This document shows positions 9,500 through 47,407 of a stretch of DNA of 64,000 nucleotides, piece by piece. The stretch is taken from the NCBI RefSeq assembly GCF_022869805.1, contig NZ_CP094974.1, positions 4,960,001 through 5,024,000 of the forward strand, given 5' to 3'. Both the position numbers and the translations under genes were made by a program. Source of the DNA: Halosolutus halophilus. Lineage in GTDB: Archaea; Halobacteriota; Halobacteria; Halobacteriales; Natrialbaceae. Position 1 is the stretch's first letter. Every line of letters begins with the position of its first letter. The notes below the pieces were generated by a model. That model had not been told where the DNA came from, did not search any database, and saw only the letters and a list, made by a program, of their open reading frames with translations.

Positions 9500-10219
9500 G
9501 TGAAGTACCTGGACGTGCGACTGCGCCAGCCAGACTGGATGCTCCACCCGATGCAGCGGTTCATCCGGGAGGAGGACGTCGTACGGTACGAGGAACTGCG
9601 CGCCTGGAGCATCCGACCCGAATCGGACGTGGAGTACGCGCTGTACTACGTCGAGGTGGCCGGTGATCCCGGGCGGTATCGGGACGCGATCGACCGGGTC
9701 GACTCGATCGTCGAGTACGAACTCGCACCGATCGACGACGACGCGCTCAACGTCTGGGTCTGCGAGGAGACCCGTCCCGAGAGCCGGGCGTGGCGCGGTG
9801 CCTTCGAGGACCGCCACCTGATCGTCGTCCCGCCGGTCCGATTCGACGACGAAGCCGCGATGGGAATGACGATCGTCGGGGACGGCGCGGATATCCAGGC
9901 CGTTCTCGCGGACCTCCCCGACGCCATCGACGTGACGATCGACGAAATCGGAACCTACGATCGCCGCGGCGGCACGGTCGCCGGTGCGCTCACGGAGCGA
10001 CAACTCGACGCGATCGACACGGCGCTCGCGATCGGCTACTACGCCGTGCCGCGGGACGCGTCGCTCGCCGACGTCGCAGACGCGCTCGACTGTGCGGAGA
10101 GCACCGCGTCGGTCCTGCTCCGGCGGGCCGAACGGGAACTGTTCTCCCGCGTCCTCGATCGGTACGGCGGTGCGATCGGCCGGGGTCGGCGAACGGATCG
10201 GTCCTCCCCGGCGCGATAG
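9500..10219 (+). CDS. Bacterio-opsin activator (Bat)-type HTH transcription factor
   Basis: A 239-residue regulator. The C-terminal third (about 165-225) is the HTH_10 domain typical of haloarchaeal Bat-like proteins: LTERQLDAIDTALAIGYY followed by SLADVADALDCAESTASVLLRRAE. The N-terminal 160 residues form the usual variable sensing domain with no recognisable ligand motif. It starts at GTG 9500, judged from the TATA box and conserved N-terminal VKYLDVRLRQP. Divergent arrangement with the P450 gene suggests local control; the signal is unknown. Confidence 0.85.
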   Translation: MKYLDVRLRQPDWMLHPMQRFIREEDVVRYEELRAWSIRPESDVEYALYYVEVAGDPGRYRDAIDRVDSIVEYELAPIDDDALNVWVCEETRPESRAWRGAFEDRHLIVVPPVRFDDEAAMGMTIVGDGADIQAVLADLPDAIDVTIDEIGTYDRRGGTVAGALTERQLDAIDTALAIGYYAVPRDASLADVADALDCAESTASVLLRRAERELFSRVLDRYGGAIGRGRRTDRSSPAR

Positions 10220-10291
10220 GTCCGCGGCGCAGCGGCGATCGAACCGTGACGGTGTGCGGCCCGCGGTGGGCGTTACCGTCCGGTCCAGCAG

Positions 10292-10798
10292 TTAGCTGCG
10301 GACCGCGGCGTCGACGATGCCGGCAGTCTGTCCGAGTCCGACGAGCGCGAATCCGGTGAGGGCGATCGAGTCGCCGACGCCGGCCAGCAACCAGGCGAGG
10401 TAGCAGCCGGCACCGAGCGTCGACGACAGCGCGGCTCCGGTGTAGCGAAACCGGGCGGCGTGGAGTTCGCGAGCGGTGTACGCCAGTCCGGCAGCCGGAA
10501 GGAGCATCCAGCCGACGAGACTGACCGCGAGTGCCGGCTCGGCGGACTCGAGAAAGCCGACGATACCGGTCAGCGTGATCCCGAACCCGACGACCATGAC
10601 GGCCCGCCAGCCGGCCAGTGCCCCCGTGGCCATCGCCGACCAGCCGGTAACGACGAACCCCGCGATGAAGACGGCCATCACCAGGTGGGCGACGAAGATC
10701 GCGTCGTCGCCGACGAGGTCCAGATGCGCGCCGGTGACGACGAGCCAGGCGAGCGGCACGAGGGCGACGGGCCCCCGTTCGCGGATTCGACGGAGCAT
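10292..10798 (-). CDS. Haloarchaeal integral membrane protein, five to six helices
   Basis: A 168-residue protein made almost entirely of hydrophobic segments (about residues 9-27, 33-58, 66-83, 91-108, 121-142, 147-163) joined by short charged loops. No enzymatic motif is visible. It stands alone between the Bat-type regulator, which runs towards it, and a methyltransferase. Family not recognised. Confidence 0.7.
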   Translation of the reverse strand: MLRRIRERGPVALVPLAWLVVTGAHLDLVGDDAIFVAHLVMAVFIAGFVVTGWSAMATGALAGWRAVMVVGFGITLTGIVGFLESAEPALAVSLVGWMLLPAAGLAYTARELHAARFRYTGAALSSTLGAGCYLAWLLAGVGDSIALTGFALVGLGQTAGIVDAAVRS

Positions 10799-11028
10799 TG
10801 CCGATCAGTACTGGGGAGTGATACAAGAGCGTGGGTGTTGGATCCAGCGGGTGACGGGTGTTTGCCCGTTGCCGGGGTTCGAGGAGACACCACTAAGGCG
10901 CGCTATATGGTACCACTATCCGTGATGTCCGGCTATCACCGCTCCGTCGACCGACGTCGCGGGACCGCTCGTCGGGATAGCGTACCGCCCATCCACGATC
11001 GTCGCTGCGGGGGACGGAGGTGACGGCG

Positions 11029-11745
11029 ATGGCGATCGATTCCCGCACGGCGTCGGAACCCAACGATCCGGCGGCGCGCCGTCCCATGTCGATCGAGGAG
11101 ATTCGCGCGTCCTACGCGGAGTGTGCCGACTGGGCCGCCCGATTCGACTGGCTCGAACGGCGTCTCACCGGCCGATACCGACGCGAACTCTTCGAGTCTG
11201 CGAGGGGCCGGGTCCTCGACGTCGCCTGCGGCACGGGACCGAACTTCGAGTACCTGCCGTCGACTGTCGACCTCGTCGGGATCGACGTCAGCCCGGAGAT
11301 GCTGGCGAAGGCGAACGAACGGCTCGATCGACTCGGGATCGACGGGCGCCTCCGGGAGATGGACGCGCAGGACCTCGCGTTCGCAGACGACAGCTTCGAC
11401 ACCGTCATCTCGTCGCTGTCGACCTGTACGTTTCCCGACCCCGTGGCCGCACTCGAAGAGATGGACCGGGTCTGCCGGCCCGACGGGCGGATCCTCCTGT
11501 TCGAACACGGCCGGAGCTACGTCGGGCCGATCGCCCGATTCCAGGACTGGCGGGCCGACGCCCACTACGCGCAGGCGGGGTGTCGGTGGAACCAGGAACC
11601 GCTCGAACTGCTCGTCGAGGCCGAACTGCCGGTTCGCGAGGTCAGCACCCGGGCACTGGGGATCGTCACCCTCGTCGAGGTCCGGCCGTCACGGGAGTCG
11701 CTGCTCGAGGCCGTTCGGGCGCACGTCGTCGATCGAAAAGGGTAA
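11029..11745 (+). CDS. Class I SAM-dependent methyltransferase
   Basis: A 238-residue enzyme with a Rossmann methyltransferase fold. Motif I is VLDVACGTGPN (about residues 59-69), the acidic residue after strand 2 lies in VGIDVSPEM, motif II is AFADDSFDTVISSLS and motif III follows in RPDGRILLFEHG. It most resembles the UbiE/COQ5 and phospholipid-methyltransferase group. An in-frame GTG lies at 11020, but GGAGGTGA at 11016-11023 is a good Shine-Dalgarno sequence five bases before ATG 11029, so that start is preferred. Acceptor substrate unknown. Confidence 0.9.
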   Translation: MAIDSRTASEPNDPAARRPMSIEEIRASYAECADWAARFDWLERRLTGRYRRELFESARGRVLDVACGTGPNFEYLPSTVDLVGIDVSPEMLAKANERLDRLGIDGRLREMDAQDLAFADDSFDTVISSLSTCTFPDPVAALEEMDRVCRPDGRILLFEHGRSYVGPIARFQDWRADAHYAQAGCRWNQEPLELLVEAELPVREVSTRALGIVTLVEVRPSRESLLEAVRAHVVDRKG

Positions 11746-11774
11746 CGGGTAACCGTCGGGCCGGCAGCGGCCGT

Positions 11775-12014
11775 TTACAGCCGTCCGAGTCGTACCTCGT
11801 CGTCCGTGATCCGCTCGACGCTGTCGGCATCGAGCGCGTAGGTCTCGTCGTCGGCATCGCCCCAGCCGAGTTTGGACTTGATCGTGTCCGTCATCCCCGG
11901 GTCGGGTTTGACGTGGGCCGTTCCTCGTTCGACGTCGTGGACGACGCCGATTTCGTCTCCTTGTGCGTTGACGACTCGTTTCCCCTCGTCGTCCGCTGTG
12001 AAGTTTGCGCTCAC
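11775..12014 (-). CDS. PRC-barrel domain protein
   Basis: A 79-residue single-domain protein of the common haloarchaeal PRC-barrel type. It reads VSANFTADDEGKRVVNAQGD at the start, followed by IKSKLGWGD and a TDDEVRL end. Starting at GTG 12012-12014 gives the family's usual length. An in-frame ATG at 12035 would add seven residues. PRC-barrels bind partner proteins or RNA; no specific role is known for these small versions. Confidence 0.85.
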   Translation of the reverse strand: MSANFTADDEGKRVVNAQGDEIGVVHDVERGTAHVKPDPGMTDTIKSKLGWGDADDETYALDADSVERITDDEVRLGRL

Positions 12015-12094
12015 GGGGATGCCTTTTCGGTCCATCGAGTAATAGCCGACACCGGCTACTGCAGGGGGCGAACCGACGCGTCGGCGTCTCGCTC

Positions 12095-15000
12095 TCACTC
12101 GAGGACGTCCCTGACCACGGCCAGATCGTGGCTCTCGTGAATCCGATCGACGGCCCAGTCGTCCGTGACGGCCACCGTCTCCGCGAGCACGTCCCGGATC
12201 GCGGGCCAGCGGGCCCCGGGGGTTCCGTCCGCTCTCGCGTACCGCTCGGCGTAGAACTCGTCGAAAAGCGTTTCGACCGCGGAGGCGGCAGGGCCGCGTC
12301 GCTCGAGGGCCGCCGTCCAGCGATCGCACAGTTCGTCACGCAGGTAACACGCGGCGACGAGCGCCTCCAGTGCGCGCTCGAGGTCCGCGGACACGTCTTC
12401 GAGGTCCCGGTCACCCGCGTCCACGGGTACGGTCACTTCCTCGACGCTCCCTCTTGCATCGGCGGCCGCGTCCATCGTGCCACGCTCGCGATCGACCGCC
12501 AGTTGCCGCGCGATCGTCAGCGTCCAGGCGAGTCGAGCGACCGCGGCTTCGGTCGCCCGGCCGGGATCGGGGACCGGAATCGGGCGGGAGTACTGGCCGT
12601 CGAGCACCCTGGCGGTCTCGGTCGTCTCCGAGAAGATCGTCTTCTGGAGGTAAAACGACGCGAACGGGTGGTTGCACACGGCGTAGACGAACGCGATCTC
12701 GCGCCCCTCGCGGCCGGTCAGCGGGACGTTCACCAGCTTTTCCGTCCCGACGAGCGCGCCGATCGGGTCGAGCCACGCCCGGAGTCGTGACCCCCGCAGC
12801 ACCTTCAGCATCACCCGCGGAACGGTGTAGCGCTCGACCGCGTCGTCGTAGTCGCTCAGATCCGCGTACCGGACGTCCGTCAGGTGGTAGCGGCTGACCC
12901 ACGGGACCTTCTCGACGTATGGGTCGGTCCCCTCGTCCAGGTTCGCCTTCGCGTCGTCCGGAACGTAGAGCTGGCGCGTCGTCTCGTCGGTCGACAGCAC
13001 CTCTCCCAGCCGCCGATCGGCGGCGACGATCCGATCGAGTACCGCGTCCTGGTCGTCGGTGATCGGGCGAAAGACGATCGTTCCCGCGTCCCGCACGTAC
13101 CGCCGCGGAACTCGCCCGAGGTGAACCGGTTCGTTCGCCGTCGGCTGCCGACAGTCGCGGCTGCGGTGGATCGTCGGCCCGATCGCGCCCTCGCGCTCGG
13201 CGGTATCCGCGACCGGACCGTCGCCGTCGTCGGCGCACGTTCCGACGAGTGCGATCGTCTCGAGGGTCACGCCGGCGAACCCGAGTCCGACGTCGAGGAC
13301 GTGTTTGATCGTCGTCTCCGCGAGGAGTCGTCCACGGACGTCGCTCCAGGAACCGTAGAACGCGACGCTCTTTGGGACGACGGCTGCGACGACGCCGGTC
13401 TCGCTCGCGAGGGTCAGCATCCGTTCGAGGAACCACTCGCAGGTGTCGCTGGCCCCCTGGCACGTGTAGGTCCCGCTTCGCTTCACCAGCGGCTCCGCTT
13501 CGGGGCCGAGTTCGGCCCCGTACGGTGGATTGGAGACGACGACGTCGAAGCCCCCGTCGTCGAAGACCTCCGGGAACTCGAGGGGCCAGTGGCAGGCGTC
13601 GAGCGCGTCCGGGGCGAAGTCCACGCCCGCGTACTCGCGTTCGACGACGACCGACCACGCGTCGCGGTCGCCGATCCGATCGCCCAGCAGCCCGAACAGG
13701 GCACCGAGGTCGCCCGGTTCGACTCCCGGCGGTGACTCCGCAAACGGCCGTTCGAGACGGGCCTTGTACGTGTAGGTGGTGAATCCGAGCGCGTTCAGGG
13801 CCGCGTCGACCCCGTCCGGAATCCCCGACGGGACCTCCACGCAGAGCGTCGTGGCGGCGGTCGAACCGGTCCGGAGACTCTCCCACGCCGCGCTGGCGGT
13901 GTCGACGCGGTCCTCGACCTCGAGTGGCGACCCCGTCTCGGCGTCGCACCGGGTGCTGGCGAACCGTTCGTCGAGTTCGGCCCGGACCGCGTCGTACTGC
14001 TCCGGGTCCTGCGGGTCCGGATCCGGCCGGTTCGGGACGGTCTCGGAGACGGCGTCCGGGTCGGTGATCCCGAACAGGCTGTTCCCCGATCGGATCCCGA
14101 TCGAACGCGCCGACAGCGCCGGGGGCGTCGGTCGATTCGCACCGGTCTCACTCTCTGCGTCGGGTCCGCAGTTCGCACTCGGCTCGCGGTCCGCGATCGG
14201 CGTCGCGGCGAGCACCCAGCACCGGAGTCGGCGTCTGCAGCGGGCCGCGACGTCGTCGCGCACGTCGACGCCGAAGACGTTGTCGGCGACGATCTCGCGC
14301 CGAAGCGTGGCCGCGTCGACGGTCGGGCGGCACATCGATCGCCACTCGAAGAGGACGTTCGCGACGGCGAGCACGAACGAGCCGCTGCCGACGGCCGGGT
14401 CACAGACGGTCAGGTCGCGGAGTTTCGCGTCCACGTACGCGAGTACGCGCTCGTCGTCCCCGCATGCCTCGTAGAGGGCGTCGAACCCGTCCCGCTGCGC
14501 GGCCTCGATCTCCCGTCGCCGTCCGCGTGCCGGCCGGTACAGCGGCGTCGACTCGAGGGCACTCGGTGCCGTTCCCGCCGCCAGGTCCTTGTCGATCGAC
14601 TCCCGGAGCGCCTCCCAGAGGGCACGTCGACCCACGAAGTCGGCGATCCGCTCGCCGGTGTAGTAGGCACCCAGTTCGTCGTTGCCCCCGGAGTGGGGCT
14701 CCGATCGGGCGGCGTCGTCGGGCTCGTCCAGCCGACCGTCGTCGAAGTCCCGGACGGCGACGACGAACCGCTCGCCGCAGTCGCCGAGTACCGCAGGCGT
14801 GATCGTCCCGTTCGCGGCCGGGTTGGATTCGACCCCGGACTCGCGTCCGTCTCCCCACGGGAAGCCGCTCAGTCGCCAGTCGTAGCCGTCGAGCCGATCG
14901 AGCAACCCGTCCCAGTCGAAGCCGTCGACGGTCGCGGTCGTGCGGTCGCCCGTCGGGTCGTCAACGCCGGGCCCACGGCCCGCCGATCGGCCGTCGTCGC

Positions 15001-16001: not shown

Positions 16002-16295
16002 TCAACTCACGTACAGCGAGTACGCGATCACCAGGAAACCGGCGAGCATCAGGAGACTCTCGAACAGAATCCCGAGGTACAGCGAAATGTCCAGCAGTTC
16101 GTACAGCACGCCCGCGAGGACGAACCCGAGCGTGACGAGCCCGAACCCGGCGGCGAGCAGCCCGAGTGCCCGCTGTTCCGTGCGACGGTAGGCCTTGTAC
16201 GCGAAAAACGTGATGGTGCCGCCGACGAGCAACACGAGCGTCTTGACGACTGCGAGGGCGATCGCCATCGTCGCTCCGCTGCTGTGCAGGCTCAT
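16002..16295 (-). CDS. Small haloarchaeal three-helix membrane protein (DUF7521-like)
   Basis: A 97-residue protein with three hydrophobic helices at about residues 13-32, 42-62 and 73-95, and a conserved FAYKAYRRT loop. It matches short membrane proteins widespread in haloarchaea and often encoded near regulators. The start is either ATG 16295 or ATG 16268 (MAIALAVVK). It is divergent from the CDGSH gene. Function unknown. Confidence 0.75.
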   Translation of the reverse strand: MSLHSSGATMAIALAVVKTLVLLVGGTITFFAYKAYRRTEQRALGLLAAGFGLVTLGFVLAGVLYELLDISLYLGILFESLLMLAGFLVIAYSLYVS

Positions 16296-16695: not shown

Positions 16696-19152
16696 TCAGA
16701 TCGATCGCGAGGAGTTCACAACGACGATCACGCTGCTGCCCGCCATCGCGACGGCGGCGAACAGCGGATTCAGCAGGCCCGCGATCGCCAGCGGGATCGC
16801 GACCGCGTTGTAGGCGAACGCCCACGCGAGGTTCTGTCGAATCCGTCGGTGCGTGCCGGCCGCGACCGCGAACGTCTCCGCGACGGCCCCGAGGTCGTCG
16901 CCGACGATCACCGCGTCCGCGGCTTCGGTCGCGAGTTTCGTCCCGCTGCCCATCGCGATTCCCACGTCCGCCGCCGCGAGTGCGGGCGCGTCGTTGCTCC
17001 CGTCGCCGACCATCGCGACGGTCCCTCTGGAGCGGAGTCGGCGGACCGTCTCCGCCTTCGCTTCTGGGGGGACCCCGGCGAAGACCTCGTCGACGGCGTC
17101 GACGTCCCGGAACCGATCGGCCGCCGCGCCCTCGTCGCCCGTGAGGACGACGATCTCTCGGCCGGCCGAGAGCGTCTCGACGGCCTCGCGCCACTCCTCG
17201 CGGGGCGCGTCGCCGACGACGATCACGCCGCGGGCGCGACCGTCCCAGCCGACGACGACCGGCACGTCGCCGTTCGATCGGGCGCGCTCGACGTGGGGCT
17301 CGAGGGTCCCGGGAACGGACAGGCCCCGCTCCCGGAGGTAGTCGGGGTGGCCGACGACGACGCGATCGTCGTCCTCGTCCGCGTTCACGATCGCGCTGAC
17401 GCCGCGGCTATCACGCTCGAAGGTGTTCACGTCGGCCTCGACGGGATCCGTTCCGTCTGCGGCCGTCTCGGCGATCGCGGCCCCGATCGGGTGCTCGGAG
17501 AGGGTTTCGACCGCCCCGGCGCGGGCGAGGACCGTCTCGGCGTCTGCGTCCGCGTCGACGTGGACGTCCGCGACGGTCATCGACCCGGTCGTGAGCGTCC
17601 CCGTCTTGTCGAGGACGACGACGTCGACCTCGGGGGCGTCCTCGAAGATCGACTCCGCGGCGACGACGATCCGCCGTTTCGCGGCCGACTGGACGCCCGA
17701 GGCGATCGCGAGCGGGGTCGCGAGCCCGAGCGCGCACGGACAGGAGACGATGACGACGGTGAGGCCGACGAGCAGCGCCGTCGAGGGTGCCGAGCCGGTG
17801 GCGAGCAGGACGGCGGCCACGCCCGTCGCGATGGCGAGCACGAGCGGGACGAAGATCGTCGCGAGTTTGTCCGCGAGACGCTGGACGCCGGGGCGGGCGC
17901 TCTGGATCGACCACAGCAGGGAGACGAGGTGATCCAGGGTGCTCTCGGCGTCCTCGCCGACTTCGACGACGACCGGGGCGTCGGTGACGACGGTCCCGCC
18001 ACGGACCGCGTCGCCGGGCCCCTTCTCGATCGGTACCGACTCGCCGGTGACGAGCGATTCGTCGATCGCCGCCTCGCCCTTGACGACGTCGCCATCCAGG
18101 GGGATCCGTTCGCCGGGGCGGACGAGGAGTCGGTCTCCGGGCTCGATCTCGGAGCGCGGAACGGTCTCGCCGTCCGCCCGACGCGCCTCGTCGACCTGCT
18201 GTTCGGTCAGGTCCGAGAGGAGTCCGGTCGCCCGGCGCTTGATACGATCCTCGTAGTAGTTGCCGGCGGTGACCGCGAGGATGATCGCGACGCTGACGTC
18301 GAAGTACAGGTCCGTCCGGCCGAGCCCCATCGCGAGCGTGCTGTAGGCGTACGAGCCGACGGCGGCGACGGCGATCAGCAGGTCCATGTTCGGCATCCCG
18401 GCCCGGAGACTCACGTACGCGCCCCGGAGGATCGGGTAGCCGGTGTAGAAGAGGACGAACGACGTCATGAGCCAGATGTTCGCGGCCACGTAGTAGCCGT
18501 CGTAGCTCCCGAAGTCGGCGATCGGCTCGTAGCCGAAGTAGGTCGGGTACAGAAAGAGCGCGTACCAGATCATCACCATCATCCCGAACATCCCGCCGCC
18601 GACGAGGAACTTCACGAGCGCGGCGTCGCGGGGCTCCTCGTCACGGCTCTCGGTCCGATCGTGGGCGTCGTAGCCGTAGCCGGAGACGACCTCGGGGAGG
18701 TCCGCGGGGTCGATCTCGTCCGGGTCGTACGTCACCCGTACCGTGTCCGTGGCGTAACTCGCCGCCGCACCTCGCACGCCATCGGTGTTCGTCGCCCGGG
18801 TCTCGAGAAACGCCTCGCAGGTCGCACAGTGCATCCCGTCGACCGCGAGGAACGCGTCCTCGCCGTCGATGTCGTCCGAGTCGGTCGACCCGTCGTCGAT
18901 CCGATCGCGGACGGCGTCGGCCGAGACGTCGTCGACCTCGTCGAGCGTTCGGTGGACCTCGAGACACCCCTGACAGCAGAAGGTGCCGTCGACGTCCGGT
19001 GCGGTGTGGGGTTCGGCCGGCGTCGGGAACGAACAGAGAGTACACGTGCCGTCGTCGGCCGCGTCGGGGCCGGCGGGGACGGCGCCACCGCTCGGCGTGT
19101 CGGTCTCGCCGGCGAGTTCGTCTCGCGAGTCGTTGGCGTTGGGGTAGCTCAT
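16696..19152 (-). CDS. Copper-translocating P1B-type ATPase, CcoI/FixI-like
   Basis: An 818-residue metal pump. The N-terminus has a cysteine-rich module (CTLC at 37-40, FCCQGC at 58-63) as in CcoI/FixI, then a heavy-metal domain with GMHCATC (106-112). Membrane helices follow, with the CPC ion-binding motif in VSCPCALGLATP, the phosphorylation motif DKTGTLTTG, the HP motif (SEHPIG) and GDGSNDAPAL. FixI-type pumps export copper for assembly of haem-copper oxidases. It is cotranscribed with a SafE-type gene 14 bases upstream and divergent from the cbaDBAE oxidase operon, so a role in copper delivery to that oxidase is likely. Start is ATG 19152. Confidence 0.93.
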   Translation of the reverse strand: MSYPNANDSRDELAGETDTPSGGAVPAGPDAADDGTCTLCSFPTPAEPHTAPDVDGTFCCQGCLEVHRTLDEVDDVSADAVRDRIDDGSTDSDDIDGEDAFLAVDGMHCATCEAFLETRATNTDGVRGAAASYATDTVRVTYDPDEIDPADLPEVVSGYGYDAHDRTESRDEEPRDAALVKFLVGGGMFGMMVMIWYALFLYPTYFGYEPIADFGSYDGYYVAANIWLMTSFVLFYTGYPILRGAYVSLRAGMPNMDLLIAVAAVGSYAYSTLAMGLGRTDLYFDVSVAIILAVTAGNYYEDRIKRRATGLLSDLTEQQVDEARRADGETVPRSEIEPGDRLLVRPGERIPLDGDVVKGEAAIDESLVTGESVPIEKGPGDAVRGGTVVTDAPVVVEVGEDAESTLDHLVSLLWSIQSARPGVQRLADKLATIFVPLVLAIATGVAAVLLATGSAPSTALLVGLTVVIVSCPCALGLATPLAIASGVQSAAKRRIVVAAESIFEDAPEVDVVVLDKTGTLTTGSMTVADVHVDADADAETVLARAGAVETLSEHPIGAAIAETAADGTDPVEADVNTFERDSRGVSAIVNADEDDDRVVVGHPDYLRERGLSVPGTLEPHVERARSNGDVPVVVGWDGRARGVIVVGDAPREEWREAVETLSAGREIVVLTGDEGAAADRFRDVDAVDEVFAGVPPEAKAETVRRLRSRGTVAMVGDGSNDAPALAAADVGIAMGSGTKLATEAADAVIVGDDLGAVAETFAVAAGTHRRIRQNLAWAFAYNAVAIPLAIAGLLNPLFAAVAMAGSSVIVVVNSSRSI

Positions 19153-19166
19153 TGGCCGAAAACCGG

Positions 19167-20015
19167 TTAGAGAGGCTGGTAGAACGGCACTGGCGGGTGC
19201 GGGAGGTGGATGCCGTACAGCATCAGCCCGTGCTGGAGCGGGAGGTAGCCCAGCAGGAGGAAGGCCGCGCCGAGTCCCCGGTGGAGCCGAACCCGGTTCG
19301 CCGTCCCGATCGAGGTGAGGATCGTGCCGTACAGGAACAGCGTCGGGATCGTGCCGATCCCGAGGACGGCCAGCGAGAGTGCCCCCCGGAGCGGATCGCC
19401 GAGCGCGAACGCGTAGAGGTACGCGGGGTAGATGATCGGACACGGCAACAGCCCGTGGACCGCGCCGAGGCCGACGATGCCGGGCGACCCGGCGAGTCGA
19501 TCGACGCGGCTCGCGAGCAGGCCCGAGAGCCACCCGAAGACGGTGCCGACGACGGGCAGACCGTGCGGGACGCCGGCCCGGCCCCGCAGGTAGTAGAGAC
19601 CGCTGGCGATGATCGCGATCCCGACGAGGATGCCCATCGCCCCCCGGACCGTGTCGCCGACCGCCGCGACGGTGTCTGCCGACGTAAACGCCAGCCCGCC
19701 GAGCAGGCCGAACAGGCCGCCGAGCAGCCCGTAACTCGCGGCCCGACCGAGGTTGAAGAGGCCGTGCTGGCGGACCTCGAACAGCGTCAGCGTGTCCTCG
19801 TGCGTTCTCCCGGTTCGGCCGCCGTCGGCCTTTGCCTTGCGCATCCGATCGGCGTAGGTCGTCACGAGCGGGCCGCACATGCCCAGGCAGTGGGCCCCTG
19901 CGAGCAGGCCGACGACCAGGAACACCAGCAGGTCGGCGTGTTCGGCGGTTCCGGTCGCCGCGTGATCGTGTGTCGCAACGAGCGTCCCGATAACGACTGC
20001 CGCGTGCCCGGTCAT
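19167..20015 (-). CDS. SafE/DsbD-like transmembrane protein (cytochrome oxidase maturation neighbour)
   Basis: A 282-residue protein with about six helices of the DsbD_2 type. The first conserved motif GAHCLGMCGPLV (residues 39-50) contains the signature HCxGMCGP, and a second, HGLLPCP, lies near 195. In bacteria, homologues sit beside ccoI/ccoS and help cytochrome cbb3 oxidase or copper/thiol handling. Here it lies between a small oxidase-linked membrane protein and the CcoI-like ATPase with gaps of 6 and 14 bases, a clear operon. Confidence 0.85.
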   Translation of the reverse strand: MTGHAAVVIGTLVATHDHAATGTAEHADLLVFLVVGLLAGAHCLGMCGPLVTTYADRMRKAKADGGRTGRTHEDTLTLFEVRQHGLFNLGRAASYGLLGGLFGLLGGLAFTSADTVAAVGDTVRGAMGILVGIAIIASGLYYLRGRAGVPHGLPVVGTVFGWLSGLLASRVDRLAGSPGIVGLGAVHGLLPCPIIYPAYLYAFALGDPLRGALSLAVLGIGTIPTLFLYGTILTSIGTANRVRLHRGLGAAFLLLGYLPLQHGLMLYGIHLPHPPVPFYQPL

Positions 20016-20021
20016 GCGGGA

Positions 20022-20225
20022 TTACGCGTCGTTCGGTTCGTGACCGTGGTGGGTGTCGGGGACGGGTTCGAACGCGACGTAGAGTGCGGTGACGATGATG
20101 AGGACGTTGATGCCGGAGACGACGCCCGCCGAGAGGGAACTCCCGAGCCCGTACCACGTGACCGGCAAGAGCGCCAGCAATCCGACGACGAGTGCGGTCC
20201 GCGGTGAGAGATCCTCGAGTACCAT
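20022..20225 (-). CDS. Small membrane protein linked to ba3 oxidase genes
   Basis: A 67-residue protein with two helices (about 10-28 and 33-52) and a His-rich C-terminus (DTHHGHE). Similar short proteins are annotated in haloarchaea as ba3 oxidase-associated subunits. It is the first gene of the SafE-ATPase operon and is divergent from cbaD. Whether it is a true oxidase subunit is inferred only from context. Confidence 0.7.
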   Translation of the reverse strand: MVLEDLSPRTALVVGLLALLPVTWYGLGSSLSAGVVSGINVLIIVTALYVAFEPVPDTHHGHEPNDA

Positions 20226-20249
20226 ACTGGGTCGTTACCAGAGCCAGTG

Positions 20250-20260
20250 TATAATAATAA
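20250..20260 (-). promoter_or_regulatory. A/T-rich promoter element between the two copper-respiration operons
   Basis: TATAATAATAA lies 25-35 bases upstream of the leftward start at 20225, at the spacing of an archaeal TATA box. The same 100-base gap must also hold the promoter of the rightward cba operon; a weaker candidate is ATTGATTAAGG near 20291. Confidence 0.55.
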
Positions 20261-20324
20261 CCCCCGTTCCTACGGGGCGGGAATTGGTCCATTGATTAAG
20301 GAGTGACTTTCCCAATACGGGCAT

Positions 20325-20531
20325 ATGAGTCAGGTATCGGAAGAACGAGACGGGGTACGCACTCCGGAAGAGACGCAGGAGATCGGCCACGACGAGTACG
20401 ATCCGATCGGGACGCTCGTCCTGATCGGGCTGTACTTCCTGATCCTGGTCGCCCTGTGGTTCTTCATGTACTTCGTCGAATTCCTCGGAAACGATCCGAC
20501 GGTCGTCGGAATGGTGATGGGGGGACTATGA
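20325..20531 (+). CDS. cbaD: ba3-type terminal oxidase small subunit CbaD, copy 1
   Basis: A 68-residue single-helix protein of the cytochrome oxidase subunit IIa type. The helix is at residues 30-52 (LVLIGLYFLILVALWFFMYFVEFLG). It overlaps the next gene by four bases (ATGA), showing tight translational coupling. The order cbaD-cbaB-cbaA-cbaE matches ba3 oxidase operons known from Natronomonas. A second copy lies at 47404-47586. Confidence 0.85.
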   Translation: MSQVSEERDGVRTPEETQEIGHDEYDPIGTLVLIGLYFLILVALWFFMYFVEFLGNDPTVVGMVMGGL

Positions 20532-21331
20532 ACATACACACGTACGAGAAAATCTGGCTGGTCGCGGCACTGCTCCTGATCGTCGCGTTCATCGGGACGA
20601 TCACCTACGGCTCGGTCGGACTCGGTATCGCGATGATCGACGACAGCGAGGAAACGATCGATCCGAGCGCGCTCAGCGAGGACGATCGGTTCAGCGAACC
20701 GCGCGTCGAGCAGGTCGGCGAGAACGAGTACGAGGCGTACGTCGTCGCCCGGACGTTCATGTTCCAGCCCGACCCGATCGAGATACCGGCCGGTAGCGAG
20801 GTGACCTTCTACGTGACGAGTCCGGACGTCATTCACGGCTTCAGCGTCGTCGGGACGAACGTCAACACGATGGTCATTCCCGGCGAGGTGTCGACGATGA
20901 CGGCCGAATTCGACGAGCCCGAGGAGTACGGAATCGTCTGCAACGAGTACTGCGGCTCCGGACACCACACCATGGAAGGACAGATCACCGTCGTCCCCGA
21001 AGACGAGTTCGACCTGACCGAACTGTCGGTCGAGGCTCCCGACGAGGTCGAACCCGGGAACGAAACCGAGTTCGAGGTCACGGTCGAGAACGGCCAACTC
21101 GAGGACCTCGAGACCACGATCGCGCTCGAAATCGGTAACGAAACGTTCGAAGAGGACGTCACGGTCCCTGGCGACGACAGCGAGACGGTGACGTTCACGG
21201 TCGACACGGCCGACCTCGGCGAGGGCGACCACGACTGGACGGTCACCGTCGACGACTACGAGGAGAGCGGGACCCTGACCGTGGTCGATCCGGACGCCGA
21301 GAACGGCGACGGAGGTGACACCGATGAGTAA
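20528..21331 (+). CDS. cbaB: Cytochrome ba3 oxidase subunit II CbaB, copy 1, with extra C-terminal domain
   Basis: A 267-residue membrane-anchored subunit. One helix at about 9-30 is followed by the cupredoxin domain with the CuA site: His in DVIHGF, two Cys in CNEYCG and His/Met in GHHTM. Residues of about 155-250 form an extra beta-rich domain (SVEAPDEVEPGNETEFEV and TFTVDTADLGEGDH) that resembles CARDB-like Ig folds and is absent from compact ba3 subunits II. That extra domain is nearly identical in DNA to copy 2. Receives electrons from a carrier such as halocyanin. Confidence 0.92.
   Translation: MNIHTYEKIWLVAALLLIVAFIGTITYGSVGLGIAMIDDSEETIDPSALSEDDRFSEPRVEQVGENEYEAYVVARTFMFQPDPIEIPAGSEVTFYVTSPDVIHGFSVVGTNVNTMVIPGEVSTMTAEFDEPEEYGIVCNEYCGSGHHTMEGQITVVPEDEFDLTELSVEAPDEVEPGNETEFEVTVENGQLEDLETTIALEIGNETFEEDVTVPGDDSETVTFTVDTADLGEGDHDWTVTVDDYEESGTLTVVDPDAENGDGGDTDE
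20989..21284 (+). repeat. Inverted 296-base near-identical copy shared with 46651-46946
   Basis: The C-terminal domain of cbaB copy 1. Aligned by eye with the reverse complement of 46651-46946 there are about six mismatches in 296 positions, and several of these are silent. Adjacent N-terminal parts of the same genes differ much more. This looks like a gene-conversion tract. Confidence 0.85.
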
Positions 21332-23111
21332 CGCGTACATCGACGACTTCCCAGCGGAAGCGAAGGTCGTCCGGGCGACGTTCTACAGTTCCTTCCTCGC
21401 GCTCGCGATCGGGGGACTGTTCGGGATCATCCAGACGCTCCACCGGACCAACGTCTTCCGGTTCATCGACTCGACGGACTACTACACCGTCCTCACGGCC
21501 CACGGGGTGTTGCTCGCGCTCACGTTCACGATCTTCTTCCTCGTCGGGATCTTCACCTGGGCGGTGACGACCAGTCTCGATCGGGGCGTCGAGGACCTCC
21601 GGTTCACCTGGGGCTGGTACGGCCTGATGGTCGTCGGGACCGTGTTCGCCGGGATCCCGATCTTCGCCGGCTTCGTCGATTCGATCGACATGAGCGCCTC
21701 GGTGCTGTTCACGTTCTACGCGCCGCTGCAGGGCCACCCGCTGTTCTACCTCGGCCTCGTGCTGTTCGTGGTCGGGTCGTGGCTCGCGGGCGTCGACTGG
21801 TTCCGCTCGTGGTGGGCCTGGAAGCAGGAGAATCCCGACGAGCGGATCCCGCTGCCGACGTTCATGGCGCTGACGACGACGCTGATGTGGTATCTCGCCA
21901 CGCTCGGCGTCGCTTCGGCGATCCTGCTGTTCCTGTTGCCGTGGTCGCTCGGCCTGATCGAGACAGTCAATCCGCTGCTGACCAGGACGCTGTTCTGGTT
22001 CTTCGGCCACCCGGTCGTCTACTTCTGGCTGATGCCGGCGTACATGATGTGGTACATCATGCTGCCGAAGATTTCAGGTGGAAAACTGTTCAGCGATCCG
22101 CTGGCCCGCGTCGTGTTCGTGCTGTTCCTGGTGCTGTCGGTGCCGACGGGCATCCACCACCAGTACCTCGATCCGGGGATCGCGGAGGGGTTCAAGTTCA
22201 TCGCGATGACGAACACGATGTTCCTGCTGTTGCCGAGCCTGCTGACGGCGTTCACCGTCGTCGCCAGCATGGAACACGGCGCTCGCCAGCGCGGCGGCGA
22301 GGGCTATCTCGGCTGGCTGACCGCACTGCCGTGGCGCGATCCCGTCTTCACGGGGATGGCGCTCGCCGGCCTGATGTTCGCGGCCGCCGGCTTCTCCGGG
22401 ATGATCAACGCCGGGATGAACATCAACTACCTCGTCCACAACACGTTCTGGGTCGTCGGTCACTTCCACCTCACCGTCGGCACCGCCGTCGCGCTGACGT
22501 TCATGGCCGCCACCTACTGGTTCCTCCCGCAGGTGACCGGCAAGGCGCTGTGGAACCGATCGGTCGCCCTCGCACAGGTCGTGATCTGGTTCCTCGGGAT
22601 GACGTTCATGTCCAACGCGATGCACCGTGCCGGCCTGCTCAGCATACCGCGCCGGACTGCCGAACCGCAGTACGAGGGCGTGACCTTCGACGCCGCCGTC
22701 GGGAGCGTCGGCGAACTCAACGCCCAGATCGCGCTCGGCGGCACCCTGCTGTTCCTCTCGCTCGTGCTGTTCTTTACGAACGTGATCGGCACGGCGTTCA
22801 ACGGCCGGAGCGACGATCTCCCGGCGAACGAGTACGCTGAAACGCTCTCGGGTCCCGAGGACGCCCCGCTCGTGCTCGACAACCTGAAACTCTGGACCGC
22901 GATCGCGATCGTGCTCGTGATCTTCGCGTACACGTTCCCCCTCATGAGCATCATCCAGCGCGGTGGGCTGTTCGGCCCCGACATCAACCCGTTCCCGGCC
23001 AGCGTCGACTCGCTGACGCTGCTCGCGACGGCGATCGAACACTCGGCCACGGGCGCGCTCGCGTCCGCCGGCGACCTCGCCCGCTCGACCCTCGTGGGGG
23101 TGATCCGATAG
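21324..23111 (+). CDS. cbaA: Cytochrome ba3 oxidase subunit I CbaA, copy 1
   Basis: A 595-residue family-B haem-copper oxidase catalytic subunit with about 13 helices. Low-spin haem ligand region is LTAHGVLLALTF. CuB ligands are in FFGHPVVYFW and GIHHQY. The haem-binding pair lies in HNTFWVVGHFHLTVG. It reduces oxygen to water and pumps protons. GGAGGTGA at 21311-21318 stands five bases before ATG 21324, which decides the start over the frame opening at 21315. Overlaps cbaB by eight bases and cbaE by one. Paralogue at 44779-46533. Confidence 0.95.
   Translation: MSNAYIDDFPAEAKVVRATFYSSFLALAIGGLFGIIQTLHRTNVFRFIDSTDYYTVLTAHGVLLALTFTIFFLVGIFTWAVTTSLDRGVEDLRFTWGWYGLMVVGTVFAGIPIFAGFVDSIDMSASVLFTFYAPLQGHPLFYLGLVLFVVGSWLAGVDWFRSWWAWKQENPDERIPLPTFMALTTTLMWYLATLGVASAILLFLLPWSLGLIETVNPLLTRTLFWFFGHPVVYFWLMPAYMMWYIMLPKISGGKLFSDPLARVVFVLFLVLSVPTGIHHQYLDPGIAEGFKFIAMTNTMFLLLPSLLTAFTVVASMEHGARQRGGEGYLGWLTALPWRDPVFTGMALAGLMFAAAGFSGMINAGMNINYLVHNTFWVVGHFHLTVGTAVALTFMAATYWFLPQVTGKALWNRSVALAQVVIWFLGMTFMSNAMHRAGLLSIPRRTAEPQYEGVTFDAAVGSVGELNAQIALGGTLLFLSLVLFFTNVIGTAFNGRSDDLPANEYAETLSGPEDAPLVLDNLKLWTAIAIVLVIFAYTFPLMSIIQRGGLFGPDINPFPASVDSLTLLATAIEHSATGALASAGDLARSTLVGVIR
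22148..22316 (+). repeat. Inverted 169-base near-identical copy shared with 45541-45709
   Basis: Within cbaA copy 1, covering GIHHQY to GGEGYLGW. The reverse complement of 45541-45709 differs at a single position by eye (GAT/GAC). Flanking codons for identical residues differ at third positions, so selection on protein alone does not explain the identity. Confidence 0.85.
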
Positions 23112-23341
23112 TGCGCATCTCGAAAGGGGCACTGCTCGTCGTCCTCGCGCTGCTCGCCCCGCTCCTCGTCGAACTCCGGACGGTACTCGCCTGGTTCGAC
23201 GTCGAACTGAGCGTGGCTCAGACGGCACTGATCGGCCTCGTCCTCGTGAGCGTGATCCTCGTCTGGGCGTTCCTGCCCGAAGACGAGAACGGCGAAAGCG
23301 ACGACGACACAACGGCCCGCGACCTCTCGAACGGCGACTGA
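23111..23341 (+). CDS. cbaE: CbaE-like small membrane subunit, copy 1
   Basis: A 76-residue protein with two helices (about 5-28 and 34-55) and an acidic C-terminal tail. It starts at GTG 23111, sharing one base with the cbaA stop, so it is the last gene of the oxidase operon. It aligns with the 63-residue protein at 44571-44762 (both have LVELRT followed by A-W/F-F). Likely an accessory subunit of the ba3 oxidase. Confidence 0.75.
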   Translation: MRISKGALLVVLALLAPLLVELRTVLAWFDVELSVAQTALIGLVLVSVILVWAFLPEDENGESDDDTTARDLSNGD

Positions 23342-42580: not shown

Positions 42581-42949
42581 TCACTCGGGTTCACACCAGA
42601 GGGTCGCCCCGTTGCGGGAGCACTCGATCTGGACGGGATCGTCGTAGGTCACCGAGACGGCGTCCATCGACTGGACGTAGTGGGCGGGCAGCCCGCCCTT
42701 GGAACGCTCGTTGAGTTGCCGGAGTAATCCGGCCTCCTGAAGCCGCTCGACTTTCCTGTACGCCGTCGATCGCGGCAGGTCGAGTTCCTCGGCGATTTCA
42801 CGGACCGTCACCGGTTCTTCCGCACGCAGATATACGTCTCGCGTGTCGCCGGCGGCGAGCAGTTCGATTATCGAGTGGGGATCACACCCCATCGGGCCGT
42901 CCTGCTCGGCGTACGTACACCGGGGTCGGTTGTCGGCTGTCTCGCTCAT
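42581..42949 (-). CDS. Winged-helix transcriptional regulator with N-terminal cysteines
   Basis: A 122-residue protein. The HTH lies at about 40-75: EPVTVREIAEELDLPRSTAYRKVERLQEAGLL, like ArsR/TrmB-type regulators of haloarchaea. Near the N-terminus CTYAEQDGPMGCDPHS and near the C-terminus IECSRNGATLWCEPE add four cysteines that could hold metal or sense redox state. Located between the frameshifted lipoprotein and the mtaB gene. Confidence 0.8.
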   Translation of the reverse strand: MSETADNRPRCTYAEQDGPMGCDPHSIIELLAAGDTRDVYLRAEEPVTVREIAEELDLPRSTAYRKVERLQEAGLLRQLNERSKGGLPAHYVQSMDAVSVTYDDPVQIECSRNGATLWCEPE

Positions 42950-43091
42950 ATCTGCCCGTTGTACGTCCGGAAAGGTGTATCTCGCACACTACTCCCAGTC
43001 TGCGGGAATTGACGACGAGGACGACGTGGACCGGAACACCGGGCCGGCGGCCGCTGCGATGCTGTCTGGATGGCTATCCCGTCTCGACCAG

Positions 43092-44570: not shown

Positions 44571-44762
44571 TCACTCCTTCGATCGGTCGTCGGTCGGACT
44601 CACAGCCCAGAGGACGATCAGGCCGATCACGACGGCGCCGACGATGATCGTCGTCGTAAACGACACCCGCACGCCGAAGAACGCGAGCGCGGTCCGGAGT
44701 TCGACGAGGAGTACGAGGAGAATCGCGATCACGATCAACAGCCGAGGGAGCGTGGTTCGCAT
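44571..44762 (-). CDS. CbaE-like small membrane subunit, copy 2
   Basis: A 63-residue, two-helix protein (LLIVIAILLVLLVELRT and TIIVGAVVIGLIVLWAV). It is the last gene of the second oxidase operon, 16 bases after cbaA copy 2, and corresponds in place and sequence style to 23111-23341. The frame opens upstream, but ATG 44762 matches the first copy's layout. Confidence 0.75.
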   Translation of the reverse strand: MRTTLPRLLIVIAILLVLLVELRTALAFFGVRVSFTTTIIVGAVVIGLIVLWAVSPTDDRSKE

Positions 44763-44778
44763 CGATCGATCACTCGCA

Positions 44779-46533
44779 CTATCCGTAGCCGACGCTCGCG
44801 AGTCCACCCTCGACGGTCGCACGGAGGAGGGCGACGAGACTCGCCGGTTCGGTCAGGACGGGGAACGGCCCGATATCCGGACCGAACAGTCCGCCTCTCG
44901 AGACGATACTGGCGAGCGGGAACCCGTAAGCGAGCACCAGCAGGACGATCGCGATGCCGGCCCACAGCTTCAGGTTGTCGAGCACCCGCGGCGAGTCCTC
45001 GGGACCCGACAGCGGACGCGGGATCCGGTGATCGTCGATCGGCTCGGTACCCCCGTTGAACGCCGTCAGGAGCATCAACGCGAGAAACAGCATCGCCGAG
45101 ACGAACAGGAGGATGCCGCCGATCGCGAGCTGGGCGTTGAGTTCCCCGATCGAGCCGGCGGCGATCTCGTACTCGAACCCCTCGTACTGCGGTTCGGCCG
45201 TTCGGCGGGGTATCCCGGCCAGCCCGCCGCGGTACATCGAGTTCGTCATGAAGACGATGCCGACGAACCAGAGGAGGACCTGGACCAGCCCGAGGCCCCG
45301 TCCGACGAGGCGGTTCCCGGTCAGTTGCGGGACGAGCCAGTAGGAGCCGGCCATGAACGTCAGCGCGGCGGCGGTTCCCACCTGCGTGTGGATGTGACCG
45401 GGTATCCAGAGCGTGTTGTGGACGAGGTAGTTGATGTTCATCCCGGCGTTGACGATGCCGGTGAATCCGCCGAACGCGAAGACGGCACCGGCCAGCGCCA
45501 TCCCGGTGAACGCCGGCTCTCGCCACGGCAGCGCCGTCAACCAGCCGAGATAGCCCTCGCCGCCGCGCTGGCGAGCGCCGTGTTCCATGCTGGCGACGAC
45601 GGTGAACGCCGTCAGCAGGCTCGGCAACAGCAGGAACATCGTGTTCGTCATCGCGATGAACTTGAACCCCTCCGCGATCCCCGGGTCGAGGTACTGGTGG
45701 TGGATGCCCACCGGGGTTCCCAGCAGGACGAACAGGATGAAGACGACGCGAGCCAGCGGGTCGCTGAACAGCCGTCCCCCGGAGAGCTTCGGCAGCAGGA
45801 TGTACCACAGCAGGTACGCCGGCAGCAGCCAGAAGTAGACGACGGAGTGGCCGAAGTACCAGAACAGCGTCCGCGTCAGCAGCGGGTTGATCGACTCGAC
45901 GATGCCGAGCGACCACGGCAAGATGAACGCCAGAATCGCCACGGCGACGCCGATCGACGAGAGGTACCACATGATCATCGTCGTCAGTACCATGAACGTC
46001 GGCAGCGGGATCCGCTCGCCGGGGTGGTCCCCCTTCCAGGCCCACCACGAGCGGAACCAGTCGACGCCCGCGAGCCACGTCCCGACGACGAAGACGACGA
46101 GGCCGACGTAAAAGATCGGATGCCCCTGCAGCGGCGCGTAAAAGGTAAAGAGCGTGTCCGAATCCACGTTGATCCAGTCGACGAAGCCGGCCAGGATCGC
46201 GAACGCCGCGAGTAGGGTCCCGGTGACCATCAGGCCGTACCAGACCCAGGTGACCCGCATGTCGACGGGACCGCGCCCGAGGCTGTCGGTGACCGCCCAC
46301 TGATAGACGCCCACGAGGAAGAAGATCGTGAACGTAACCACGAGGAAGACGCCGTGGCCCGTCAACACGGTGTAGTAGGCCTCCGACTCGATGAACCTGT
46401 ACACGTCCGTCCGGTGGAGCGCCTGGATGAGTCCGAAGATCGCACCGACGCCGAACGCGACGAACGAGGACGTAAACACCAGTCGAACGAGACGCGCCTG
46501 GACGGGATACTCGTCGGCGAACGTCTCACGCAT
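44779..46533 (-). CDS. cbaA: Cytochrome ba3 oxidase subunit I CbaA, copy 2
   Basis: A 584-residue family-B haem-copper oxidase subunit, clearly paralogous to the copy at 21324-23111. Haem and CuB ligands are present in LTGHGVFLVVTF, YFGHSVVYFW, GIHHQY and HNTLWIPGHIHTQVG. In this copy the usual HPxVY of the CuB site is HSVVY. Start ATG 46533 makes the N-terminus align residue by residue with copy 1; upstream ATGs at 46539 and 46542 exist. Overlaps cbaB copy 2 by eight bases. Either copy could serve different oxygen or salinity conditions. Confidence 0.93.
   Translation of the reverse strand: MRETFADEYPVQARLVRLVFTSSFVAFGVGAIFGLIQALHRTDVYRFIESEAYYTVLTGHGVFLVVTFTIFFLVGVYQWAVTDSLGRGPVDMRVTWVWYGLMVTGTLLAAFAILAGFVDWINVDSDTLFTFYAPLQGHPIFYVGLVVFVVGTWLAGVDWFRSWWAWKGDHPGERIPLPTFMVLTTMIMWYLSSIGVAVAILAFILPWSLGIVESINPLLTRTLFWYFGHSVVYFWLLPAYLLWYILLPKLSGGRLFSDPLARVVFILFVLLGTPVGIHHQYLDPGIAEGFKFIAMTNTMFLLLPSLLTAFTVVASMEHGARQRGGEGYLGWLTALPWREPAFTGMALAGAVFAFGGFTGIVNAGMNINYLVHNTLWIPGHIHTQVGTAAALTFMAGSYWLVPQLTGNRLVGRGLGLVQVLLWFVGIVFMTNSMYRGGLAGIPRRTAEPQYEGFEYEIAAGSIGELNAQLAIGGILLFVSAMLFLALMLLTAFNGGTEPIDDHRIPRPLSGPEDSPRVLDNLKLWAGIAIVLLVLAYGFPLASIVSRGGLFGPDIGPFPVLTEPASLVALLRATVEGGLASVGYG
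45541..45709 (-). repeat. Partner of the inverted 169-base repeat in cbaA copy 1
   Basis: Reverse complement of 22148-22316 with one mismatch by eye. The sequence on either side of the tract shows many third-position differences. Confidence 0.85.
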
Positions 46534-47407
46534 CGTCATCACCTTCGCCGTCGGTCCCGGTCTCGTCGCCGGTTTCGTTCCCGTCGCCGGCCCCGGTCTC
46601 GTTCCCGTCGCCGCCGTCGTCGCCCTGCTCGCCCTCGTCCCCGGCTTCCGCCACGGTCAGGGTCCCGCTCTCCTCGTGGTCGTCGACGATGACCGTCCAG
46701 TCGTGGTCGCCCTCGCCGAGATCGGCCGTGTCGACCGTGAACGTCACCGTCTCGCTGTCGTCGCCAGGGACCGTGACGTCCTCCTCGAACGTTTCGTTGC
46801 CGATTTCGAGCGCGATCGTGGTCTCGAGGTCCTCGAGTTGGCCGTTCTCGACCGTGACCTCGAACTCGGTTTCGTTCCCGGGTTCGACCTCGTCGGGAGC
46901 CTCGACCGACAGTTCGGTCAGGTCGAACTCGTCTTCGGGAACGACGTTGAGTTTCCCCTCCATGGTGTGGTGTTGGGAGCCGCAGTACTCGTGACAGATC
47001 ACCCCGTACTCCTCGGGCTCGTCGAACTCGACCGTCATCGTCGACACCTCGCCGGGGATGACCATCGTGTTGGTGTTCGTCCCGACGACGCTGAAGCCGT
47101 GGATGACGTCCGCGCTCGTCACGTAGAACGTCACTTCGCTGTTCGCCGGCACCTCGATCGGGTCGGGCTGGAAGATGAACGTCCGGGCGACGACGTACGC
47201 CTCGTACTCGTTCTCGCCGACCTGCTCGACGCGCGGTTCGCTGAACCGATCGTCCTCGCTGATGTCGTCGGGGGGCAGCACTTCCTCGCTGTCGTCGATC
47301 ATCGAGATGCCGAGCCCGATCGAGCCGTACGTGATCGTCACGATGAACGCGACGATCAACACCAGCGCTGCAACGAGCCACAACTTCTCGTACGTGTGGA
47401 TCCTCAT
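46526..47407 (-). CDS. cbaB: Cytochrome ba3 oxidase subunit II CbaB, copy 2, with Ig-like domain and acidic tail
   Basis: A 293-residue subunit. The anchor helix, the CuA site (DVIHGF, CHEYCGSQHHTM) and the extra beta-rich domain match copy 1. It adds a C-terminal low-complexity tail with repeated GNETG and Asp/Gly. The extra domain differs from copy 1 at about six bases in 296. Start ATG 47407 overlaps the end of cbaD copy 2 by four bases. Confidence 0.92.
   Translation of the reverse strand: MRIHTYEKLWLVAALVLIVAFIVTITYGSIGLGISMIDDSEEVLPPDDISEDDRFSEPRVEQVGENEYEAYVVARTFIFQPDPIEVPANSEVTFYVTSADVIHGFSVVGTNTNTMVIPGEVSTMTVEFDEPEEYGVICHEYCGSQHHTMEGKLNVVPEDEFDLTELSVEAPDEVEPGNETEFEVTVENGQLEDLETTIALEIGNETFEEDVTVPGDDSETVTFTVDTADLGEGDHDWTVIVDDHEESGTLTVAEAGDEGEQGDDGGDGNETGAGDGNETGDETGTDGEGDDDA
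46651..46946 (-). repeat. Partner of the inverted 296-base repeat in cbaB copy 1
   Basis: Reverse complement of 20989-21284 with about six mismatches by eye. It covers exactly the extra C-terminal domain of subunit II. Confidence 0.85.

Follow-up and report, generated by a model that had tools for sequence, protein, structure and literature searches.

Three leftward genes of the haloarchaeon Halosolutus halophilus, divergent from a ba3 oxidase operon, probably form a dedicated copper-loading unit for that oxidase. They lie in a 64,000-nucleotide stretch of DNA, hereafter the window (positions 4,960,001 to 5,024,000 of a 5.06-Mb contig), and encode a P1B-type copper ATPase, a membrane protein annotated as DsbD_2 or TauE/SafE (hereafter SafE) and a small membrane protein of 67 residues. 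The leftward unit (16696–20225, minus strand) and the ba3 operon (20325–23341, plus strand) have their start codons 99 bases apart. A first-pass annotation had described a copper ATPase with an FCCxGC module and a SafE protein divergent from a family-B ba3 operon, across a shared promoter region of about 100 bases, and all of these parts are indeed present.

The ATPase (818 residues, 16696–19152, minus strand) matches Pfam E1-E2_ATPase (2e-46) and HMA (7e-13) and scores 428.6 bits against a cut-off of 397 with the NCBIfam model of copper-translocating P-type ATPases. Its N-terminal part bears a CxxC/FCCxGC module (CTLC...FCCQGC) and an HMA domain with a CxxC site (GMHCATC), and its membrane part the motifs CPC, N-x6-YN-x4-P and P-x6-M-x2-SS. 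SafE (282 residues, 19167–20015, minus strand) matches Pfam DsbD_2 at 9e-43 and carries the motifs HCLGMCGP and LLPCPIIY. The 67-residue protein (20022–20225, minus strand) leads the leftward unit, has two hydrophobic stretches and a His-rich tail (HHGH, within the C-terminus DTHHGHEPNDA), and found no family match in Pfam or NCBIfam. In the 99-base promoter region common to both arms (20226–20324), a 17-bp inverted repeat, TTCCTACGGGGCGGGAA (20267–20283), lies exactly midway, 41 bases from each start codon, and is a candidate operator. The rightward operon, all on the plus strand, is headed by a CbaD-like small subunit (68 residues, 20325–20531), followed by subunit II (CbaB, 20528–21331), whose CuA ligands (H...CNEYCGSGHHTM) align with the Thermus CuA domain, and by subunit I (CbaA, 21324–23111), a family-B ba3-type heme-copper oxidase with the oxidase tyrosine in its helix-VI motif GHPVVY; a CbaE-like hydrophobic protein (76 residues, 23111–23341), named after the first-pass annotation, ends it. 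Thermus thermophilus ba3 is the best structural relative of both subunits, with an E value of 1e-121 for subunit I as against 1e-12 for the first family-A chain. A family C (cbb3) identity was rejected: subunit I reached 43.7 bits with the ccoN model against a cut-off of 583 and is not CcoN-type. C-terminal to the CuA domain, subunit II has an extension with a weak CARDB-like stretch (21014–21331, below the Pfam cut-off), and a DUF7521 membrane gene (16002–16295) adjoins the 3′ end of the ATPase gene.

The linkage of these genes to the oxidase is conserved. We took the best 80 of 109 cba loci, fetched with subunit I from named records, and scanned them with profiles for the ATPase, the small gene and SafE. 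A divergent ATPase was present in 78 of these haloarchaeal ba3 loci and the small gene in 79, and the misses (L051 and L089 for the ATPase, L051 alone for the small gene) are all contig ends, which argues for a unit dedicated to the oxidase; SafE was found in 53 of the 80. Nine of the loci come from Haloferax. The three genes had been expected not to lie scattered relative to the oxidase genes, and this holds for the ATPase and the small gene and only in part for SafE.

Co-occurrence across haloarchaeal genomes, a check that the first-pass annotation had proposed, agrees. Of 145 genomes of the class, each at least 90% complete, 100 have CbaA at an E value of 1e-100. All 100 also have the ATPase, at E values of 1e-130 or below, and SafE, for which the weakest top match has an E value of 2e-56, as against 14 and 12, respectively, of the 45 genomes without CbaA, a difference that supports the copper-loading unit and for which Fisher values are not readable as probabilities, the species being related. 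The ATPase and SafE searches each listed the best 150 matches, so adjacency counts taken from them are lower bounds. Among the matches listed, the ATPase is divergent within 10 kb of CbaA in at least 92 of the 100 genomes and beside it on the same strand in at least four; in G043, G076 and G098 it was seen beside CbaA in the fetched DNA, though not among the matches listed, bringing the total to 99 of 100. In genome G124, the ATPase lies about 200 kb from CbaA and is still adjoined by the small gene, as judged by a match to the small-gene profile. In Halomicrobium, the small gene, SafE, the ATPase and the cba genes all run on one strand, so that the linkage has been kept through rearrangement. 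Both cases again point to a dedicated unit.

Copper specificity is indicated by the ATPase motifs. CPC, N-x6-YN-x4-P, P-x6-M-x2-SS and the HMA site were present in all 133 haloarchaeal ATPases examined, the window protein included (L039, L047, L051, L061 and L089 of the 80 loci, truncated or split, are left out of this set), and by CPC, N-x6-YN and M-x2-SS all 133 belong to the P1B-1 Cu(I)-transporting ATPases. A CxxC plus FCCxGC-type site (pattern C..C.{8,25}[FYM]C[CS].GC) was likewise found in 133 of 133. Such an additional N-terminal metal site, next to a CopZ-like CxxC, is a feature of CcoI/FixI (CopA2) ATPases, although not of every FixI. The two-site pattern was seen in four of six bacterial ATPases taken as CcoI/FixI-type and missing from the other two, and in neither of two CueR/MerR-linked ATPases, the MerR of the second being our own reading. 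A fold search with the module returned HMA-type domains as its leading matches.

The nearest annotated model is a cbb3 cluster on Shewanella baltica pSbal01, in the order ccoN-ccoO-ccoQ-ccoP-fixH-ccoI-ccoS-SafE. From the aligned CC-x-GC site to its end, the window ATPase is 31% identical to Shewanella CcoI, and the two SafE proteins are also 31% identical. Like bacterial cbb3 clusters, the window has these kinds of ATPase and SafE beside a heme-copper oxidase, with CxxC, CCxGC and HMA sites and Cu+ membrane motifs. Unlike them, it pairs the ATPase with a family-B ba3 enzyme that has CuA, its genes are divergent rather than one operon, and CcoG or FixH was not recognised beside the unit. The enzyme served by the CcoI route, cbb3, lacks CuA. 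By its parts, which are of the same kind, the window ATPase may work like CcoI, and we claim this likeness, not orthology. On a Sinorhizobium fredii plasmid (L171), a CcoN-like COX1-family gene, by our reading, is followed by a DsbD_2/SafE gene and an FCCxGC ATPase without an HMA match (these two at 9953–12840), three genes on one strand within 7 kb. In the available texts, the CcoI protein of Rhodobacter capsulatus, with its two N-terminal sites, is a Cu(I) exporter that serves cbb3 (PMC8475189), deletion of ccoI or ccoS nearly abolishes Cco activity and copper partly rescues it (PMC8267372), and Caulobacter FixI serves cbb3 and not aa3 (PMC12617631). This precedent, together with the Shewanella cluster, favours a copper-loading role for the window unit.

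SafE and the small protein were also characterized. HCxGMCGP was present in all 73 SafE relatives, among which those of the cba loci had been pre-selected with the looser pattern HCxGMC, and the invariant cysteines are those of HCxGMCGP and of a PC pair; this motif and the DsbD_2 match (9e-43) place the window protein in the DsbD_2/TauE-SafE-annotated family. Its AlphaFold model is helical (mean predicted local distance difference test score, pLDDT, 82.5). Foldseek found no PDB match to this model at E 0.001, and the best VIA-align score (Z 8.3, to 9a52_A) falls within the tool's stated common range. A CcdA/DsbD fold was considered and found no convincing PDB match with either tool, CcdA/DsbD not being among the rows shown. 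As to the small protein, its place at the head of the leftward unit stands, and the His tail attributed to it is frequent rather than general: 67 of 80 rows have at least one His among their final 14 residues, and 46 have two or more.

These parts suggest how the unit might work. The ATPase would take cytoplasmic Cu(I) through its two N-terminal sites and pump it to the outer membrane face, where CuA in subunit II, and perhaps CuB in subunit I, would be filled. SafE, polytopic and with its invariant HCxGMCGP, and the 67-residue protein would help, most likely by passing copper on; alternatively, they may keep copper and cysteines reduced near the pump. The sequences do not decide between CuA and CuB, and copper delivery itself is something we infer.

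The same type of ATPase also occurs beside other enzymes. The source genome has 13 E1-E2 ATPase matches, among them two further FCCxGC-type ATPases, at 1.57 and 3.43 Mb, beside operons of the eNOR type (a nitric oxide (NO) reductase with a cupredoxin/CuA-type subunit). Subunit II of these operons is CuA-like by its ligand motif, its COX2 match being weak, and subunit I has GHxTQQ in place of the oxidase GHPxxY of helix VI. The available part of PMC8756737 gives Gln in place of the helix-VI Tyr as the distinguishing feature of eNOR, an enzyme reported in Natronomonas and further Halobacteria. The two eNOR loci differ from the window unit in that the ATPase lies on the 3′ side, is convergent and falls into a separate clade. 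The statement that only one of the two oxidase operons carries the unit is accordingly true of the ba3 operons and leaves out these two further ATPases. The 1.57-Mb cluster (L103, 531–12934) contains a fused CtaA-CtaB, a two-domain multicopper protein (NirK-like by our reading), a cupredoxin, SCO1/SenC, a redoxin/TlpA-like protein, a gene read by us as CcdA-like, the eNOR-type subunits and the FCCxGC ATPase, and looks like a copper-enzyme assembly island; the CcdA name itself found no Pfam match. At 3.43 Mb (L102, 5755–11263), a second eNOR-type operon has its own convergent FCCxGC ATPase.

At least 54 ATPases lie away from CbaA among the best 150 matches listed. By mechanical gene calls (long frames rich in G+C at third codon positions), which SafE or COX1 neighbours may escape, seven of the 54 are beside eNOR, five beside an A-type COX1, at least 22 beside SafE only and 19 beside neither; one of these loci, L140, has no ATPase gene call, and seven of the fetched stretches end at contig ends. 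The ATPase type described as a ba3 partner is therefore that, and is not confined to ba3. At locus L119 (6576–12206), an A-type oxidase is accompanied by an ATPase, SafE and a small membrane protein of the DUF7333 kind. This repeats the three-part layout with another oxidase, and the DUF7333 protein fails the small-gene profile. Pairs of SafE and an FCCxGC ATPase with no oxidase found near were seen at L104–L109, L115, L123, L134 and others, and named plasmids of haloarchaea, too, carry SafE genes of this sort.

Several observations count against a dedicated, CcoI-like loader of the ba3 oxidase. SafE is absent from 27 of the 80 cba loci (one of them a contig end) and lies within 1 kb of at least 26 of the 54 listed ATPases away from CbaA, so that SafE tracks the ATPase rather than the oxidase. 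For 41 of the 150 ATPases listed, the several kb of fetched DNA, cut short in some cases by a contig end, showed no heme-copper gene, and at least 22 of the 41 have SafE; part of the family may thus serve other copper proteins or efflux. No ATPase or SafE was found at five bacterial ba3 loci (two Methylobacterium, two Deinococcus and one Caballeronia; tblastn at E 1e-3 over about 8 kb), so the unit is not a general need of family-B oxidases. We accordingly rejected a pump beside family-B oxidases in general, and the pairing is, on the loci seen, a trait of haloarchaea. The Sco and PCuAC chaperones are not part of the window unit, and a SCO1 gene lies instead in the 1.57-Mb eNOR cluster; Thermus thermophilus CuA assembly is described with PCuAC and Sco, no P-type ATPase being named for it in the available text of PMC6696091. 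Shewanella CcoI (CxxC...MCCPGC) matches PF12156 at 2e-28, whereas the window ATPase stays below threshold (E 0.13). In a core tree of 26 sequences with 17 haloarchaeal rows, five proteobacterial CcoI/FixI proteins, two of them unannotated and taken by similarity, form a clade (support 100/99) that holds no haloarchaeal row, and the haloarchaeal ATPases form their own (100/100), outside the proteobacterial CcoI/FixI clade. Haloarchaeal and CcoI-type rows part from CopA at a support of 42/26, and we placed the haloarchaeal ATPases with neither CcoI nor CopA, the trees giving only a separate clade. As an identity for the small protein, CcoS was rejected (E 0.25 over 13 residues against Shewanella CcoS). 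The cbb3-style label of the first-pass annotation fits in the likeness to the Shewanella cluster and fails in ancestry and in the small protein.

Three other explanations compete with the dedicated unit. That the ATPases feed copper to all CuA enzymes (ba3, eNOR and aa3), and not specifically to the neighbouring oxidase, is a serious candidate that we still hold improbable: among the matches listed, it would account for the ATPases beside eNOR and A-type COX1 and for second ba3 copies that have no ATPase of their own and presumably share one, and CuA, common to the three enzymes, hints, without showing it, at CuA as the main customer. It sits poorly with the partner-type ATPase tree, built with 30 of the 80 cba rows, in which the seven eNOR-linked ATPases form one clade (SH-like approximate likelihood ratio test 100), pointing to partner-specific ATPases, and in which the 30 cba-linked ones require three changes as against 25 when shuffled; this sorting suggests specialisation. 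Somewhat doubtful, too, is a unit devoted to redox or thiol chemistry, in which SafE would move electrons to reduce Cu(II) or the cysteines of CuA, copper supply by the ATPase being only indirect. The DsbD_2 match and the invariant cysteines invite it, as do the redoxin/TlpA-like and putative CcdA-like genes of the source-genome eNOR cluster; yet SafE is missing at those 27 loci, whereas the only two loci without the ATPase are contig ends, and the predicted SafE fold, without a convincing PDB match, leaves a redox fold unproven. An ordinary copper-efflux pump in the CopA1 role, kept near the oxidase by a common copper or oxygen signal, appears unlikely. It would suit such a pump that many members of the family lie away from any oxidase, a number of them beside SafE alone, and that public annotation reads just cation-translocating P-type ATPase, whereas the almost universal oxidase linkage, kept through rearrangement, the absence of the CxxC/FCCxGC module from the two CueR/MerR-linked ATPases and the sorting by neighbour type all speak against it. 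We retain the dedicated copper-loading unit as the preferred reading.

The window contains a second ba3 operon (44571–47586, minus strand), and a direct check found neither an ATPase nor a DsbD_2/SafE gene beside it. Among the matches listed, 13 of 14 genomes with two CbaA copies have an ATPase beside exactly one of them, and in G043, which has two copies, the fetched DNA shows an ATPase beside the copy examined. An ATPase at one of two ba3 operons thus looks like a rule among the matches listed, where lower-ranked ATPases beside second copies are possible and the direct check covers the second copy of the window only. The two enzymes presumably share a single pump. In the window, the genes for the CuA subunits of both operons (20528–21301 and 46634–47407) are 85–93% alike, as an inverted repeat, and the matching parts of subunit I only 72–85%; gene conversion of subunit II is possible.

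The two arms of the locus may be switched together through one operator midway in the promoter region. Of 72 loci measured, 38 have a divergent intergenic region of 99–103 bases. In 62 of 77 loci (77 regions being used from the 80 small-gene rows), an inverted repeat of the form TTC-N9..13-GAA begins 33–50 bases from the small gene, most commonly as TTCYYAS-N4-YRRGAA. Mononucleotide shuffles averaged 1.3 and never exceeded 5, which argues for co-regulation of the arms; the form was first spotted by eye in the same related loci, so the count of 62 describes rather than tests. In a more independent count, RTTCYHASNNNNYRRGAAY occurred 94 times in 21 genomes (strands summed, palindromic sites counting twice) as against four for the reversed control, and was absent from three of the 21. 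It is a natural guess that a regulator of oxygen, NO or copper supply would act at the repeat, a Bat-type helix-turn-helix gene next to another repeat copy being the leading candidate. A published denitrification motif, CGAAYATDKTYG, was compared as given in the available text of PMC11218638, and the sequences differ.

A shorter pattern of the repeat gave ten sites in the source genome as against one for the control. These lie in the cba/ATPase promoter region of the window, before a globin gene and a NorB-type NO reductase gene, between a gene for a Bat-type helix-turn-helix (HTH) protein and a DUF2249-CtaA/CtaB-NirK-like-eNOR cluster, and in the gap that separates an HTH/DUF7521 pair from two genes of which one is weakly YtkA-like and the other encodes a cupredoxin; the remaining six lie near genes for an HTH protein and a universal stress protein and near genes without a plain respiratory link. 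At the globin gene (L190, 1501–3017), the repeat copy is about 43 bases upstream and the NorB-type gene follows; at L183 (818–1114), a DUF7521 gene is paired with the HTH gene beside the repeat copy and a cupredoxin gene. Among 26 sites examined in the source genome and its relatives, one is a cba promoter, seven (two in the source genome) have an HTH gene starting 14–69 bases away, and many are near unrelated genes. Within the window, an HTH gene (42581–42949) has a one-mismatch repeat copy (42991–43009) about 42 bases upstream. No copy was found before the second ba3 operon at up to two mismatches, and a loose two-mismatch pattern is no commoner across the window than in shuffles (8 versus 7.1).

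As kinds of protein, the oxidase, this type of ATPase and SafE were all known before. The cbaDBA genes of Haloferax volcanii (HVO_0943, HVO_0945) and Natronomonas (NP_2966A) encode the same oxidase as the window; the available text of PMC8305020 lists them by annotation and does not mention the divergent ATPase, SafE or small gene. In its available text, a survey of Haloferax mediterranei copper genes enters the cba oxidase separately from the copper ATPases (PMC9240420), and the available portions of PMC3475470, PMC8498564 and PMC9145763 hold nothing on such an ATPase. We found no report of the ATPase-ba3 linkage in the open-access literature, which leaves out most subscription journals, and within that same literature, as far as its texts were available, we did not meet the near-universal ba3 pairing, the partner-sorted ATPase clades, the central operator or any description of copper insertion into an archaeal terminal oxidase.

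Taken more widely, haloarchaea could have evolved a family of FCCxGC copper ATPases and turned some of its lineages into private copper loaders of ba3, eNOR and aa3, partnered by SafE and by a small membrane protein of a new kind. CuA would then be loaded through an export pump, in contrast to the CcoI route with its CuA-free cbb3 enzyme, and the ba3 case would be tied by a new operator shared with NO-reductase genes; we put this forward as a tentative and rather speculative picture. The compact, near-universal gene set beside the ba3 operon also occurs in genera with working genetics, such as Haloferax, and is directly testable. Copper assembly genes of the cbb3 type are, by this account, not tied to family-C oxidases, a use is offered for several unannotated haloarchaeal genes, and the operator may link the supply of the oxidase with that of further genes for respiration and NO.

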